Positions 11,365 through 33,449 of a DNA stretch of 33,576 nucleotides are shown piece after piece. A model generated the notes under the pieces. That model did no database searches. It was not told the DNA's origin and worked only from the letters and a program-made list of their open reading frames with translations. Source of the stretch: Clostridiaceae bacterium (GTDB lineage Bacteria; Bacillota; Clostridia; Acetivibrionales; DUMC01); contig DUMC01000190.1 in NCBI GenBank assembly GCA_012840075.1, forward strand, positions 1 to 33,576, in the 5' to 3' direction. The position numbers were made by a program, and so were the translations under genes. Position 1 is the first letter of the stretch; every line of letters starts with the position of its first letter.

Positions 11365-11585
11365 CAACTTAACTTTCTTCTTGCAGGTACATATAACAAA
11401 TTAAGTATACAAAATTAGCGGAGTTTTATCAACAAGTCATTGTTTCCATAACACTAACTATTTTCCCATGTATATGAGCGAAAAATAACAAAGTCTAATT
11501 GAATTTATCCAAACAATAATATACAATGGACCTTGTAAGGTAATTGGAACAAAACAAATAAAAATAGAGTCTTTCTTTTTAGGCT

Positions 11586-11810
11586 TGGTTAATTGTTATG
11601 CAATGCATCCTGGTTAATTATCCCTCAACGTATATTGGTTAATTATCATGCAATGCATCCTGGTTAGCTATGCTGAAATAATTTATTTTGGCTAATTATC
11701 GTGTAGTGCATCTTGGTTGGCTATCATGCAATGTATGTTGATTAATTATTGTGCAATGCATCATGGTTAACTACCGCACAATGCATCCTTAATTACCGAT
11801 AATGTATTTA
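11586..11810. repeat. Array of about eight degenerate 25-bp tandem repeats
   Basis: Units start at 11586, 11611, 11636, 11661, 11689, 11714, 11739 and 11764. All are 25 bases except the fourth (28), and a partial ninth runs to about 11810. The consensus opens TGGTTAATTATCATGCAATG and ends CATCC; units 1 and 3 differ at two bases, others are more diverged. There are no unique spacers between units, so it is not CRISPR. It lies in the 775-base gap between the divergent PBP2 and femAB genes. Confidence 0.85.
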
Positions 11811-16476: not shown

Positions 16477-16896
16477 TTAGATAATATCACCGTTTTTTAC
16501 ACTCATTACTCGGAGGGGACATGCTTTTACACATAATTCACATACAAGGCATTTTTCCTTGTCAAAAGTCAAGCTCCAATCCGATTTATCCATTTTTAAG
16601 GCTCCGGACGGACATACTGCAGTGCATGTGCCGCAATGAACGCAGCTTTCCTCTTTCCATATAATCGATTTGTTGAAAACCGCATACTCAGCTCCTATTT
16701 GTCTTACATACTTCAATCCGGCTTCAATATCTTTCTCTTCTCCTTCTATATCAACTACAAGCGTTCCAACTTTATTAAGGCTTACATCAGCGTTTAAAAT
16801 GTTTACCATCAGGTTGTAATTCTTTATTAAATGGTATGCCAATGGTATAGCTATCTTGTTTGCCGGAAAATACATTGTTACTTTAATCTTTTTCAT
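16477..16896 (-). CDS. NIL-domain ferredoxin of homocysteine synthesis
   Basis: Partner of the COG1900 protein; in Methanosarcina the equivalent pair (MA1821/MA1822) is needed for homocysteine formation, the ferredoxin part presumably supplying electrons for sulfur transfer. 139 residues: NIL domain (about 1-75), then two 4Fe-4S motifs, C85-x2-C88-x2-C91-x3-C95-P and C116-x2-C119-x2-C122-x3-C126-P, all eight cysteines present. Start: GGAGGGGG six bases before the ATG. The start codon overlaps the end of the COG1900 gene by 14 bases, a clear sign of coupled translation. NIL domains also occur in methionine transporters, but the fusion to ferredoxin and this neighbour point to the sulfur pathway. 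Confidence 0.9.
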   Translation of the reverse strand: MKKIKVTMYFPANKIAIPLAYHLIKNYNLMVNILNADVSLNKVGTLVVDIEGEEKDIEAGLKYVRQIGAEYAVFNKSIIWKEESCVHCGTCTAVCPSGALKMDKSDWSLTFDKEKCLVCELCVKACPLRVMSVKNGDII

Positions 16897-18070
16897 TTTG
16901 TACCCCCTCCGTCCTATTCCTTATTTCCAGCTTATTTACAGTATTGGTAAGAGGTAGTGATGCTACAGGCTGTGTCAGTAAAAATTCACCTTTTAATATC
17001 CATTCCTTTAATACATTGGCTATTTCCCTTGCTTTTTTGATACTTGACAGTGGTGCAGTAGGTACTGTCTTACCGTTTAGTTCAATACTTCCGCTCATAA
17101 GTTCTTCATAAGAAACTCTTTTAAGAACAGGTCTGGGACCTGATGAAACGCTATAATCAATTACATTTGTATAAATATCTTTATTTCTTACTGCCGTTTT
17201 TTCTGCCATATCTTCATCAATAATAGGTATAGGTATGCCTACTCCGATAAATATGGATACTCCGTATTGCTGGTAAACGGCTGCCCTTACATACTTTGTA
17301 CTCATTTGCTTTAAATCACCGATAAGCGCCAAAGTCCCTGCAGGACCCATCGGTACTCCGTTTTCTCCTCTTTTTTGTTCAGGATTATGCTGAGTACCTT
17401 CCCAGACAACATACCCTTGGGCTCCTCCAAAAAATATTCGGGTACCGATACCTATAGTTCTGTAAAGCGGATCGTTTAACAGAGGACTCAACTGACCTGA
17501 TGTTGAATATGTTACATTTCCGCATCTGGGTAAAAGAGTTCCCATATAAGTATACATAATCTTGTTAGAACTATTTGTAGCTGCGTTATAATTCTGGTAA
17601 GCATTTCTAGGGTTAAACATAAAAGCTTGATTTATGTTATTTTTATTAATATAAGTTGATATTTCTTTTCTGGGATAACAATGAGTTCCATATGATTCAG
17701 CAACTAAGTGTATATCTTTGCCGGCTATTAAATCCTCAATTACATGAGCCCCACCATATTCCATGCCTCTGGATTCGGAAAGCTCTGTAGCACCTATATA
17801 TGCATCTACGGCAGCTAATCCGGCAAAAGCAGGAACATCATTAAGCCAAACCTTGGTCATTTTTATCGGCGGATCTGAATGCCCAAAATTTATAAACGCA
17901 CCTGAAGAACACATAGGTCCAAAAGTTCCCGTCGTAACTACATCCACTTCTTTAGCGGCTTGTTTAACACCTTTTTCTTCAACTATATCGATCATTTCTT
18001 CAGCCGTCAAAACTACAGCTTTACCGGCTCTTACTTTTTCGTTGATTTCTTCAATAGTTTTGTAACTCAT
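16883..18070 (-). CDS. L-aspartate semialdehyde sulfurtransferase-type protein (COG1900/DUF39)
   Basis: Central protein of the aspartate-semialdehyde route to homocysteine, first described in methanogens, which incorporates sulfide without O-acyl-homoserine. 395 residues, full length. C54 (in FGPMCSSGAFINFGHSDP) and C131 (in SYGTHCYPRKEIS) match in position the two cysteines I recall as functionally important in the methanogen homologue. Other blocks are YGGAHVIEDLIAG, RNAYQNYNAATN, GTRIFFGGAQGYVVWEGTQH and GVGIPIPIIDEDMA. No CBS domain is fused. The SD is modest (AAAGGGA). First gene of the three-gene cluster. The 92-base upstream segment (18071-18163) shows no SAM or T-box motif that I could recognise. 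Confidence 0.9.
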   Translation of the reverse strand: MSYKTIEEINEKVRAGKAVVLTAEEMIDIVEEKGVKQAAKEVDVVTTGTFGPMCSSGAFINFGHSDPPIKMTKVWLNDVPAFAGLAAVDAYIGATELSESRGMEYGGAHVIEDLIAGKDIHLVAESYGTHCYPRKEISTYINKNNINQAFMFNPRNAYQNYNAATNSSNKIMYTYMGTLLPRCGNVTYSTSGQLSPLLNDPLYRTIGIGTRIFFGGAQGYVVWEGTQHNPEQKRGENGVPMGPAGTLALIGDLKQMSTKYVRAAVYQQYGVSIFIGVGIPIPIIDEDMAEKTAVRNKDIYTNVIDYSVSSGPRPVLKRVSYEELMSGSIELNGKTVPTAPLSSIKKAREIANVLKEWILKGEFLLTQPVASLPLTNTVNKLEIRNRTEGVQNEKD

Positions 18071-18187
18071 TTGACATCTTTCCCTTTACAAGTTAATTTC
18101 AAATAATATACTATAAGACATTCTATCTCTTTAACTTTATATTATAAGGTTATATGTATATAAATGCAATATGAGAATATCAAGAAA

Positions 18188-18732
18188 GACATGGGGACGG
18201 TTCTTTTGTCCGAGACTGAGAAAGACATGGGGAAAGACATGGGGACGGTTCTGGCGTCTGCTGGAGACAGGGGGACGGTTCTAGCGTCTGCTGGAGACAG
18301 GGGGACGGTTCTAGCGTCTACTGAAAAGACAAAGAGGCGGTTCCACAGACAAAGAAAGATAAAGGGACGGTTCTAGTGTCTGTTGGAAGTGAAAAAAGAC
18401 AAGAAAAAACAAGGAGACAGTTCCCATAATAGACGGAGGGACGGTTCCCATGTCTGCTAAGCGGAAATAACTTCCCTAAATCTGGAAATAACTTCTTTAA
18501 ATCTTTCAGTTTGCAGACAAAAGAACCATTTCCCCATTTTCCCTATCTACCCGAGAACTGTCCCTATGTTTATTTTAAGACAAAAGAACCGTCTCCATAT
18601 CTAATCCAGACAAAAGAACTGTCTCCTTGTCTAACCTAACTTAGACAGAACAGAAGAACCGTCCCCTTGTCTATACCCAAAAGAACCGTCCCCTTGTCTA
18701 TAAATCTATACCCAGACAAGAGAACCGTCCCC
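18188..18732. repeat. REP-like cluster of GGGGACGGTTCT elements in two opposed arms
   Basis: Forward cores: 18193, 18241, 18271, 18301, 18335 (degenerate), 18364, 18413 (degenerate) and 18438. Reverse-complement cores (AGAACCGTCCCC and variants): 18522, 18554, 18585, 18615, 18655, 18682 and 18721. Three forward units are exact-length 30-bp tandem copies (18241-18330). Cores are usually flanked by GACA and TGTC. The two arms could pair as one large imperfect hairpin around the centre (about 18455-18510). The cluster fills the gap between the deacetylase stop and the COG1900 start. No gene is present; a 70-codon plus-strand frame merely translates the repeats. Similar GGGGACGGTTCT elements are familiar from other Firmicutes genomes. 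Confidence 0.93.
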
Positions 18733-18736
18733 CTGT

Positions 18737-19897
18737 CTATAAATCAAACGGTCTTATTTCATACCCCTGGGCTTTAATATCCTTAATAATTCTGTCCAGT
18801 GCATCTGCGTTATCTTTGGATACGGCGTGAAGCAGCATAACAGCACCGTTGTGTAGGTTAGCCATTACTTTGTTATATGCATAATCTGCTCCTCTGATTT
18901 TGTCAGCATACCAATCGTCATAAGCAAAACTCCAGAATATGGTTTTATATCCAAGCTGTTGAGCCGCAGCCAGTACTCTCTCGCTGTATTCTCCCGACGG
19001 TGGTCTCATATATTTGGTTCTTACGCCGAATTTTTCGTAAAGTTTATCGTCGAGACCAAGAAGCTCTTGTTCTAGTTTTTCATAATCGACATCCGGCAGA
19101 CTCGGATGGGATATGCTATGGTTACCTATCTGGTGCCCTTCATCCAACATTCTTTGGATCAATTCAGGATTTCTGTCGATATATGAACCTGTAACAAAAA
19201 ATATCGTTTTTACGTCATTTTCTTTAAGCACATCAAGGATTTTAGGCGTATAACCATTCTCATAACCTTCGTCAAATGTAAGATATATAACTTTCTTAGA
19301 AGTGTCGCCTACATAAATTCCATCATATTTATCAATCATTTCCTTGATGTTGGAATTTATCTCAGGAGTTTTGTGCTCACTGTTAAGCTTTATCCACCAA
19401 GAATATTTTGTATTGTCCAGTTTATTAAGGGCTTCCACATCAAGCTTTTCAACATTAGGCTCTTTCGGATTAACAGGTAATTCCTCTTTATCCTGGGTTG
19501 TTTCTTCGTTATCACCTTCAGGCTTTTTATCTTCGCCATTTGCTTGTCCATTATTACCGTTGCCTTTATTAGCATTATCACCAACGTTGTTATTATCAGG
19601 TTTTTCATCCCCGGTTTCATTATCATTTGCAGATTGGGTATCTTCATTATCGTTGTTAGTTACATCTTCCATATCAGTTGTCTGATTCTGATTATTCTCT
19701 CCTACAGTTCCATTGTTTCTTGTATAAAGTAAATATGAAACCGTAAAGCCAATAGTAAAAAAAACCAGAGCAATTAGAATAAAAATACCGAGTCCTCTTG
19801 CTGATGTTTTTCTTTTGATCTTCTTTCTGGATTTATTACCGTTGGTTTTACCGTTTAAGTTCTTATTCCTGTTTCCATTCTTGTGGTTGCTTGCCAT
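18737..19897 (-). CDS. Membrane-anchored polysaccharide deacetylase, PdaA-like
   Basis: Predicted peptidoglycan N-acetylmuramic acid or N-acetylglucosamine deacetylase. 386 residues: basic Asn-rich cytoplasmic tail; membrane segment (about 36-57); a 90-residue Asn/Glu/Asp-rich linker (60-150); then a NodB domain. Motif 1 is TFDEG (207-211), with E in place of the usual second D, as in PdaA, the spore delta-lactam enzyme. H260-x3-H264 bind metal, R298 lies in RPPSGEYS, and H357 in LLHAVS. The family resemblance and nearby spoIVF genes suggest a spore-cortex role, but vegetative wall modification is possible. Start: AAAGGA about eight bases upstream. The REP-like cluster begins five bases after the stop and may serve as 3' UTR. 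Confidence 0.9.
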   Translation of the reverse strand: MASNHKNGNRNKNLNGKTNGNKSRKKIKRKTSARGLGIFILIALVFFTIGFTVSYLLYTRNNGTVGENNQNQTTDMEDVTNNDNEDTQSANDNETGDEKPDNNNVGDNANKGNGNNGQANGEDKKPEGDNEETTQDKEELPVNPKEPNVEKLDVEALNKLDNTKYSWWIKLNSEHKTPEINSNIKEMIDKYDGIYVGDTSKKVIYLTFDEGYENGYTPKILDVLKENDVKTIFFVTGSYIDRNPELIQRMLDEGHQIGNHSISHPSLPDVDYEKLEQELLGLDDKLYEKFGVRTKYMRPPSGEYSERVLAAAQQLGYKTIFWSFAYDDWYADKIRGADYAYNKVMANLHNGAVMLLHAVSKDNADALDRIIKDIKAQGYEIRPFDL

Positions 19898-26390: not shown

Positions 26391-26632
26391 GGCTTATTTC
26401 TCCATTTCACTTTAAATCAACACAAAATTTCTAAAACTCTTACAAATTTTCGTTTTAATTTTCCACTCATACAAACCTTCATTTATTAAATAATTAAAAA
26501 TTTATTTAAACTTCATTTATTTGAATTATTTAACTTCATTTATTTAAACCTTCATCTATTTATTAAATTATTTAAGTATTTAAACCTTTATTTATTTACT
26601 TAATCTATCTCTTTTTTAATTTATATCTTTAT
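26391..26632. repeat. Low-complexity TTCATTTATTTAAA repeats between mreB and mreC
   Basis: The gap is made of variants of TTCATTTATTTAAA and TATTTAAA, recurring about every 20-30 bases (CTTCATTTATTTGAATT, CTTCATTTATTTAAACC, CTTCATCTATTTATT, CTTTATTTATTTACTT). No terminator with a clear stem, and no gene. Confidence 0.6.
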
Positions 26633-27655
26633 CTATTTAAACTTCCTTTGTGATATTAAAACTTTTTTCAAAGTTTCAATATCTTCTAAAACTTTAGCTG
26701 TGCCTAAAGCTACACAATCAAGGGGATTCTCGGCAACATAAACCGGCATCCCGGTTTCTTCCATAATTAATTTGTCGAGACCGTTTAGCAAAGCTCCCCC
26801 GCCTGTAAGCATAATTCCTCTGTCTACAATATCGGAAGCAAGTTCTGGAGGGGTTCTTTCCAATGTATATTTAATCGCATCTACAATTGCACCTATTGGG
26901 TCTTTCAGTGCCTCCATTATTTCGGTAGAAGTAATCTCGATATTTTTAGGAAGACCGGTTATCAGGTCTCTTCCTCTGATTGTCATGGATTGCTCAGATA
27001 GCTTCGGATATGCAGAGCCTATTGTAATTTTGATTTCCTCTGCCGTCCTCTCTCCTATCATTAAATTATATTCTTTTTTAATATAATTAACAATACTTTC
27101 ATCAAAATCATCCCCTGCAATCCTTAAAGACCGGCTTGTAACAATACCTCCCAGTGAAATTACAGCTACCTCGCTGGTACCTCCCCCAATATCCACAACC
27201 ATACTTCCCACAGGTTCATCTACCGGCAGGTTTGCACCTATTGCAGCCGCCATCGGTTCTTCAATAAGCCCCACTTCTCTTGCCCCTGCTTGGTATGTAG
27301 CATCCTCCACTGCTCTCTTTTCTACTTCTGTAACACCTGAAGGTACGCAAATAATAACTCTGGGTTTTGATATTATACTTGAAGAAGTAGCTTTCTTTAT
27401 AAAATATTTCAACATGCTAAGAGTAATATCATAGTCAGCAATAACCCCATCTTTCATTGGCCTAATGGCTATGATATCACCTGGAGTTCTTCCTATCATC
27501 TCCTTTGCAGCATCACCAACTGCGATTATTGCATTTGTCTTTTTATTTATGGCAACAACTGAAGGTTCCCTTATCACTATTCCTTTTCCTTTTACATGAA
27601 CCAATGTGTTTGCCGTCCCTAAATCAATTCCTATATCCTTTCCAAACCAACCCAT
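26633..27655 (-). CDS. mreB: Rod shape-determining actin homologue MreB
   Basis: Bacterial actin that directs side-wall synthesis. 340 residues, standard length. ATPase motifs: phosphate 1 [19 protein letters not shown] (7-25), connecting and phosphate 2 [18 protein letters not shown], adenosine motif [16 protein letters not shown], plus [13 protein letters not shown] and [18 protein letters not shown] lies 9-10 bases before the ATG. 43 bases after radC. Mbl, the paralogue, cannot be strictly excluded, but its position ahead of mreCD supports MreB. Confidence 0.97.
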
Positions 27656-33142: not shown

Positions 33143-33449
33143 CCCCTAAATCAATAATAATAAGCACAATTTAACCAAAAACTAACAATGTTTACATGAA
33201 ATAATAACAATTAATTTAAAATAAAAACAGTTAATTTAAAATAATAAAACTAATTATAACAAGTATAATAAAAATTTTACATAAACAATAGAAATATCAT
33301 TCATATATCTGTATATTGCATCTTATTCAATATATAAACCGGGTTTACATAATATTCTTCTATCAGTTAACATTATACATGTAATATCTATTAATATCAA
33401 ATGTTATATTTAACAGATAAGTCAAGTTTTTCATCATATTATGTATTTC
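33143..33449. other. AT-rich region upstream of lon, no gene seen
   Basis: Contains a tandem pair ACAATTAATTTAAAATAA / ACAGTTAATTTAAAATAA (about 33207-33243). TATAAT-like sequences on the minus strand (near 33255) could belong to the lon promoter, but no well-spaced -35 is clear. No HrcA CIRCE element was seen. Confidence 0.5.

Follow-up and report, generated by a model that had tools for sequence, protein, structure and literature searches.

A dense block of short repeats stands between two genes of a Clostridiaceae bacterium, with one arm of forward copies facing another arm of reverse copies, and this raises the question of what the repeated element is and how so many copies came to stand in one place. 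The window analysed here is a stretch of 33,576 nucleotides (positions 1 to 33,576 of contig DUMC01000190.1, assembly GCA_012840075.1). The array is very probably a local pile-up of a REP-like non-autonomous element, founded by means of a Y1/HUH transposase of the TIRYT kind that would be encoded elsewhere in the genome.

Structure of the repeat array

A full-unit scan has shown that the array consists of 15 units of one 25-nt repeat at positions 18187–18738, 8 forward and 7 reverse (Table 1), in agreement with the original prediction of about fifteen elements with eight forward cores opposed to seven reverse ones, the coordinates of which hold. The repeat unit has the form AGACA-N-GGGGACGGTTCT-NN-TGTCT. 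Eleven units of the array are clean, with at most 3 mismatches at the 22 informative positions, and four are decayed, with 6, 6, 7 and 8 mismatches. The exact core GGGGACGGTTCT is found in the array four times in the forward orientation (18193, 18241, 18271 and 18301) and three times in the reverse orientation (18655, 18682 and 18721). When up to 2 mismatches are allowed, there are 13 cores in the window, 12 of them in the array and 1 outside, compared with an expectation of 0.68 per shuffled window, and 13 or more are reached in 0 of 100 shuffles. As a random control for the full unit, ten Markov-1 windows yielded 1 match with 6 mismatches, 6 with 7 mismatches and 43 with 8 mismatches, and none lower. 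Since random windows give such matches, the units at 18327 and 18407 (7 and 8 mismatches) are counted only for their position in the array.

The left arm has a period of 30 bp, and the right arm has a period of 39 bp that includes a near copy of the end of the deacetylase gene (GATTTATAGACA). Three forward copies, F2 to F4, had been described as an exact 30-bp tandem, and this is true of their spacing, which is exactly 30 bp, but not of their sequences, the second and the third being 93% and 87% identical, respectively, to the first over 30 nt. The 21-bp direct duplication at the centre of the array, at 18463–18504, has no relation to the 25-nt unit. The minus strand of 18180–18745, folded as RNA, gives −233.8 kcal/mol with a z score of −8.4. 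An Rfam scan of 17900–18900 with E up to 1 gives 0 matches, and a terminator search in the array finds 1 terminator-like site, compared with a mean of 0.9 in shuffles. Other AT-rich intergenic tandem repeats are present in the window at 11584–11773, 26500–26640 and 33199–33255.

Table 1. Units of the array and the two genes beside it (positions in the window)
Feature	Position	Strand	Remarks
Whole array, 8 forward facing 7 reverse units	18187..18738		Between deacetylase 3′ end and upstream region of HcyBio gene
F1	18187..18211	+	1 mismatch to AGACANGGGGACGGTTCTNNTGTCT
F2	18235..18259	+	1 mismatch; first of 30-bp-spaced trio
F3	18265..18289	+	1 mismatch
F4	18295..18319	+	1 mismatch
F5	18327..18351	+	Decayed, 7 mismatches; included for array position
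F6	18357..18381	+	2 mismatches
F7	18407..18431	+	Decayed, 8 mismatches; included for array position
F8	18431..18455	+	3 mismatches
Centre between arms, 21-bp direct duplication	18463..18504
R1	18515..18539	-	Decayed, 6 mismatches
R2	18547..18571	-	Decayed, 6 mismatches
R3	18578..18602	-	2 mismatches
R4	18608..18632	-	2 mismatches
R5	18648..18672	-	2 mismatches
R6	18675..18699	-	2 mismatches
R7	18714..18738	-	Perfect; overlaps deacetylase stop codon
Polysaccharide deacetylase gene	18737..19897	-	PF01522, E=4.7e-41; reverse units in sense orientation, directly past stop
HcyBio gene (PF01837)	16883..18070	-	Downstream of array

The repeat family in the source genome

The source genome (193 contigs) contains 162 exact cores, 72 forward and 90 reverse, and 113 perfect 25-nt units, and the reversed-sequence control gives 0 for both, so the repeat is a dispersed family and not a local oddity. 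The array in the window is therefore far from being the sole cluster in the genome, a finding that the original prediction had named as its refutation. Such pile-ups are common in the source genome. Alignment of 80 flanked exact cores from 26 source-genome loci and the window has shown that the AGACA arm is conserved in 78–79 of the 80 copies at each position and the TGTCT arm in 63–75. A constant GTAG sequence was sought 5′ of the stem in these 80 copies and was not found, the positions there being variable. Both orientations are present in 18 of 30 source-genome clusters (29 from loci among the first 100 of the 162 core positions listed, and the window), and in all 18 the forward cores lie to the left of the reverse cores. 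With a looser definition of the unit, 29 of 31 clusters have the forward-then-reverse order, and the 2 exceptions rest on weak units with 7–8 mismatches.

With simple open reading frames of at least 90 codons as gene calls, the 3′ end of a sense gene lies within 60 nt of 40 of the 80 exact cores (6 of these cores being placed a little ahead of the stop), 7 cores are near an antisense 3′ end ahead, 9 are near an antisense start behind, and 0 of the 80 lie within 60 nt before the start of a sense gene. The end of the stop codon lies 5–6 nt before the start of the core in 9 of the 40 cores near sense gene ends. The first bases of the element overlap a stop codon (TAGACA, TGAGACA or TAAGACA) at L066, L069, L072, L078, L079, L005 and L011 and at 18737–18739 in the window. 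A model in which the arrays grow outward, with the oldest copies in the centre, is not supported: rho is 0.007 over 69 units of 10 two-armed clusters, and within-cluster permutations were as low in 187 of 2000. The window array by itself does look like an older-centre pattern.

The same site in relatives

The HcyBio gene was found in 5 of the 8 relatives queried. Two of them (L228 and L229), which belong to the same family as the source, have the deacetylase and HcyBio genes in identical order and orientation, and the core, sought with up to 1 mismatch, is absent from both fetched stretches. The array is thus missing from the syntenic site of these two same-family genomes. The other three HcyBio-bearing relatives have no core nearby, and no deacetylase gene in the fetched stretch either. 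In L228 (740–1141) and L229 (666–1076), an opposite-strand frame of about 135 amino acids occupies the gap where the window has the array; a Pfam scan of the L228 frame with E up to 0.001 gave nothing.

Unit R7 overlaps the stop codon of the deacetylase gene (TAG, 18737–18739). Since L229 also has TAG at this stop without having the element, the element need not have created the stop codon. The 30-bp period of the left arm and the 39-bp period of the right arm, the latter with its copy of the gene end, point to local duplication after a single insertion, and the pile-up looks like the product of local tandem duplication around one insertion.

A transposase clade carrying the core

Among 60 genomes, the source and 59 relatives, 41 contain the core and 45 have a Y1 match. 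Sixty loci of the relatives (L086–L145) were chosen by hand among the listed Y1 matches with a RAYT-like score, excluding IS200-like loci and most G027 copies. L137, which lacks an HUH frame, and L116, with 194 aa, were then dropped, so that 59 of 61 loci were kept for a tree. The tree of these 59 Y1 proteins has two parts, separated with 100% SH-aLRT support: a short clade (29 proteins) and a long clade (30 proteins). All 16 rows labelled GGTTCT are in the short clade and none is in the long clade. Among the short-clade proteins, 9 changes of the GGTTCT label have to be assumed, so that core and protein are not in lockstep; the shuffled mean is 14.3 changes, and 0 of 500 shuffles are as low. 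The label is thus clustered there, but it does not have a single origin.

A recurrent layout is observed at the Y1 loci of the relatives, in which a core in the orientation of the gene lies mostly 20–125 nt before the start and an inverted core mostly 5–16 nt past the stop. A core in the right orientation is present within 220 bp at 17 of the 29 short-clade loci (34 right-way cores and 0 wrong-way), a proportion that is biased upward because the first six loci were chosen for adjoining core positions, and an exact core is present within 220 bp at 0 of the 30 long-clade loci. A set of titled loci, the best 80 of at least 556, was ranked by similarity alone, to an alignment containing those six core-chosen loci, and seems to overlap the relatives' loci in at least three genomes. 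Right-way cores lie within 220 bp at 39 of these best 80 loci (64 right-way cores, and 3 wrong-way in 3 loci), and the core flanks both sides of the gene within 200 bp at 14; 41 of the 80 have no exact core in place, some of them having GGTTCC, AGGTTC or GGGGTT. The same best 80 include loci of Geosporobacter, Thermoanaerobacter, Desulfosporosinus, Syntrophomonas, Alkaliphilus and Bacillus. The central idea of the original prediction, that a REP-associated transposase has expanded REP-like elements, is therefore supported in the main, but the elements are not canonical REPs, since the GTAG foot is missing and the constant tag lies between the stem arms.

The short-clade transposases are Y1 (HUH) proteins of about 250–290 aa. 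Four full-length proteins of the clade were scanned, and all four match PF01797 (E from 1.5e-17 to 2.5e-13); N59, H60, H62 and Y112 are invariant in 23 of 23 rows. The HTH matches are all below the Pfam cut-offs, the best being HTH_19 with E=0.0022. A structural model of the L149 protein of Geosporobacter ferrireducens (mean pLDDT 87) has five C-terminal helices and matches TnpA-REP 4er8 with a Foldseek E of 1.7e-7 and a Z of 17.8 (rmsd 2.8, 161 aligned), and the structure-match rows (VIA) mostly span model residues 2–170. The long-clade proteins, of about 300–325 aa, have inverted ends of their own, GGGGACGCTTCT and GGGGACATTTCT, at L131, L133, L143, L132, L103 and L095, and these ends apparently belong to a parallel element family. 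The cores of the long clade read GCTTCT, ATTTCT, ATTCCT and similar.

Transposases of the source genome

As originally stated, no such transposase is encoded in the window. The source genome has one intact Y1_Tnp gene, C124, the product of which has 314 aa and belongs to the long clade; two further Y1 matches are short frames with stops. C124 was considered as the cognate enzyme and rejected, because it is of the other clade and is adjoined by ATTTCT-type cores instead of a GGTTCT core. A further reason for the rejection is that no more than 7 exact copies of the long-clade end GGGGACATTTCT are present in the source genome. Besides C124, a short-clade protein query gives a weak match (E=0.009) at the end of contig C79. 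The frame there encodes 130 aa, the C-terminal half of such a protein; it runs off the contig without a break, and core units follow its stop on the 3′ side. This fragment is 45% identical over 128 residues to a protein of Geosporobacter ferrireducens, and its three best hits in the set of 59 tree proteins belong to the short clade (E from 2.9e-34 to 4.7e-28); scanned by itself, it has no Pfam match above cut-off. An intact short-clade transposase was sought in the 193 contigs of the source assembly and was not found, the catalytic half being absent from the assembly. The search of the genome for TnpA-REP genes, which had been put forward as a check, has thus brought to light a C-terminal half gene beside the core, but the sole intact Y1 gene is of the long clade.

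Hairpin structure of the element

The stem was analysed with one exact-core element per transposase, that nearest the gene, after 4 of 55 loci had been removed at 90% identity or more. Positions −2 to −6 are paired with positions 14 to 18 in 190 of 255 cells (51 transposases), compared with 91 ± 8 paired cells, and a maximum of 123 in 5000, when the 3′ flanks are permuted. The pair −7/19 is also above chance (31 of 51 vs 13), the pair −1/13 is slightly so (26 vs 20, with 34 of 1000 as high), and the pair −8/20 and those further out are not above chance in the 51 loci. Stems such as AGACA/TGTCT, GAAGCA/TGCTTC, GAACA/TGTTC, GCAAGT/ACTTGC and TAATCA/TGATTA are seen. Since the flanking positions covary as a stem, the core lies between the stem arms, in the would-be loop, and the constant tag thus appears to sit in the hairpin loop and not at the foot. 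The constancy of the core in this set comes partly from selection, as the elements were chosen by exact core; other transposase loci carry GGTTCC, AGGTTC, AGGTAC or GGGGTT after GGGGAC.

The covariation is observed between genomes; within the source genome, the pairs of the AGACA/TGTCT stem and those beyond it do not covary. Energy models do not favour the hairpin of a single unit, which is weak (−3.6 to 0 kcal/mol as DNA); only 1 of 4 window units folded as DNA is predicted to form the covarying stem, two of which were trimmed one base off. Two inverted pairs fold with −35.7 and −31.9 kcal/mol.

Relationship between stem and transposase

Transposase distance is correlated with stem difference over 50 proteins (r=0.28, with 0 of 2000 permutations as high), and its correlation with the sequence just outside the stem is r=−0.01; L212, which contains N letters, was left out of this correlation and of the nearest-neighbour check. 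The C-terminal part of the protein remains informative after the N-terminal part has been taken into account (r=0.196, 0 of 2000), and the converse does not hold (r=0.03, 478 of 2000), in Mantel tests that may be misled if the two parts differ in rate. When 45 random C-terminal columns are compared with 45 random variable N-terminal columns, the mean difference in r is 0.078, and the difference is 0 or less in 4% of 300 draws. At the level of sequence correlation, therefore, the stem tracks the transposase, and it tracks the C-terminal part best. The six of the 50 proteins that are nearest to the C79 fragment have the stems AAGACA, AAGACA, GGGACA, CAGACA, AAGACA and GAGACA. Stems ending in AGACA, which is the stem of the source genome, occur with 6 of the 50 proteins overall, and five of them are among these top six, the proteins of which are mutually related.

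A survey of 391 genomes of the class, the source included, found at least one core in 142; in 121 the alignment is matched with E of 1e-20 or lower, with at most 6 candidates scored per genome. With the source excluded, 43 genomes have at least 10 copies, and 29 of these have a match at E<1e-60, compared with 44 of 347 genomes with fewer copies; the Fisher value of 4.6e-14 overstates the independence of the genomes because the species are related. The remaining 14 of the 43 high-copy genomes are without a match at E<1e-60, and one of them has 214 copies. Eight of these genomes have 20 or more copies, namely G359, G223, G139, G421, G207, G068, G158 and G105, with 20–214 exact cores. In such genomes the transposase may have been lost, may be unassembled or may be more divergent.

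Origin of the array

These observations lead to a plausible sequence of events. The founding copy, probably an inverted pair, would have been inserted at the stop codon of the deacetylase gene. The enzyme responsible would be a TIRYT-type Y1/HUH single-strand transposase (subclass 2.1 TnpA-REP), the gene of which would lie at another place in the genome. The single-stranded unit would fold into a 6-bp hairpin, displaying the 12-nt core in its loop. We infer a division of labour in binding, in which the HUH domain would recognise the core and the C-terminal, putatively HTH-like region would largely recognise the stem, and cleavage and transposition would proceed by nicking and transfer of single strands, as in the families cited below. 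The two arms would then have grown mainly by local tandem duplication with periods of 30 bp and 39 bp, one of which seems to have taken part of the end of the gene with it, and the inner copies would have decayed. Neither a transposition event nor a polymorphism was seen in the present analysis.

A rather unlikely alternative is that this genome now has only a dead copy of the cognate transposase, so that the array would be a relic and its repeats would change only by replication slippage and recombination. It would be in keeping with the finding of only the C-terminal half of a short-clade gene, with the 30-bp and 39-bp tandem periods and the decayed units in the middle of the array, and with the finding that some high-copy genomes lack a match at E<1e-60. 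However, the C79 half gene runs open to the contig end and so is cut by the assembly and not by a stop, and 113 units are still perfect. It is doubtful, and more so than a relic, that the host retains the units for a function of its own, as hairpins at the 3′ ends of mRNAs or as transcription barriers, as has been claimed for the REPs of E. coli. Half of the 80 cores lie close to the 3′ end of a sense gene and none shortly before a sense start, and both the array and the two inverted pairs folded have strong predicted folds, but the placement at 3′ ends is also expected if insertions elsewhere have been purged, and the terminator-like sites in the array are about as many as in shuffles. In addition, two same-family genomes keep the syntenic genes without the array, and across genomes the stem follows the transposase. 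The structure in the 3′ untranslated region probably has little selected role.

An inverted arrangement would also be expected of miniature elements of a DDE transposase or of a recognition site of a phage or plasmid. Such an origin is highly improbable, because Y1 genes have the same core at their ends, oriented as required, and the covarying 6-bp stem suits a folded single strand. An artefact of assembly or collapse has, if anything, an even smaller chance of being the explanation. Contigs C65 and C121 have exact cores no more than 20 bases from their starts. The assembly is thus broken at the element in some cases, and the lengths of arrays may be in error, but the unit is found in many unrelated places, with differing flanks, and is also present in single-contig genomes such as G035 (18 copies).

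Comparison with known repeat systems

Compared with the published descriptions of the known classes, the elements fit best the TIRYT/TIRtron type (subclass 2.1 TnpA-REP), an assignment made from sequence features. Di Nocera et al. (2013) describe TIRtrons/TIRYTs, some of them with GGGGWSAS ends, and some of these repeats occur as multi-copy dimers and clusters (PMC3733652). The subclass 2.1 TnpA-REP proteins, which have C-terminal HTH parts, are probably the same as the TIRYTs, and neither automatic nor manual searches are reported to have found REP-like sequences beside their genes (Quentin et al. 2018, PMC6006769). As in these published descriptions, a Y1 HUH transposase with a long, possibly HTH-like C-terminal part is encoded between inverted repeats that start with GGGG, and the repeats form multi-copy clusters. 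In contrast, the core GGGGACGG departs from the GGGGWSAS motif in having G, not A, at position 7. Some other loci among the best 80 of at least 556 titled ones read GGGGACAG at the core, and GGGGWSAS is described as shared by 'some TIRs' only, so that it is not strictly defining (PMC3733652). A further difference from the class as described is that more than 100 copies are present in some genomes and that the ends have REP-like covarying stems.

Classical REPs have GTAG at the foot of the stem (Nunvar 2010, PMC2817692), and the bases of the loop matter for cleavage in some of them (PMC8266576). The present elements resemble the GTAG REPs and REPtrons described there in combining a palindrome of variable stem with a constant unpaired motif, in the inverted copies that flank a Y1 gene, in co-evolution with the transposase and in high copy number (PMC2817692). 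The palindromic stem is likewise kept by compensatory change (190 of 255 cells vs 91, 51 loci). Unlike the 4-nt foot 5′ of the stem in the GTAG REPs as described, however, the constant motif here is a 12-nt stretch between the stem arms. REPINs, in the account of Bertels and Rainey (2011, PMC3116915), share the inverted pairs that form long hairpins and the ordered clusters that arise by tandem repetition together with flanks, whereas the mixed clusters of the source genome are head-to-head and are not tandem pairs. CGTC REPs are also short palindromic repeats, and the complement of the core contains CGTC, but in the published account CGTC stands at one end and has no transposase (PMC3733652), whereas here it is inside the core and a transposase is associated.

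A literature search with the core or its 11-letter part on either strand matched only papers on other subjects, as judged by title and abstract, and found no description of the repeat in the texts covered; an earlier mention elsewhere is possible. If the short-clade transposases are of subclass 2.1, the repeat supplies a partner element for a group published as having none, and its stem gives a statistical hint of what the HTH tail, of unassigned use, reads. Recognition in this transposase group would become directly testable with a protein pair and oligonucleotides. The family would also account for repeat pile-ups that otherwise resemble regulatory or assembly oddities. It is conceivable, though short of probable, that these REP-like mobile hairpins are a class of their own, widespread and frequent in Clostridia, with the loop as constant recognition tag and the stem as a changeable 'address'. 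The HUH domain would then read the loop core GGGGACGGTTCT and the C-terminal HTH-like region the stem, new families would arise by paired changes in HTH and stem, and in the part of the family with a −35 box at the upstream end the enzyme would be its own repressor.

An exact TTGACA sequence (−35 box) follows the core directly in 12 of 40 upstream elements, compared with 1 of 34 downstream elements and 0 of 80 dispersed elements of the source genome, suggesting that the transposase could repress its own promoter through the −35 box at the upstream element. Some of the elements counted come from close relatives. Examples of this overlap at short-clade transposase genes are L149 (2438–2480), L140 and L087.
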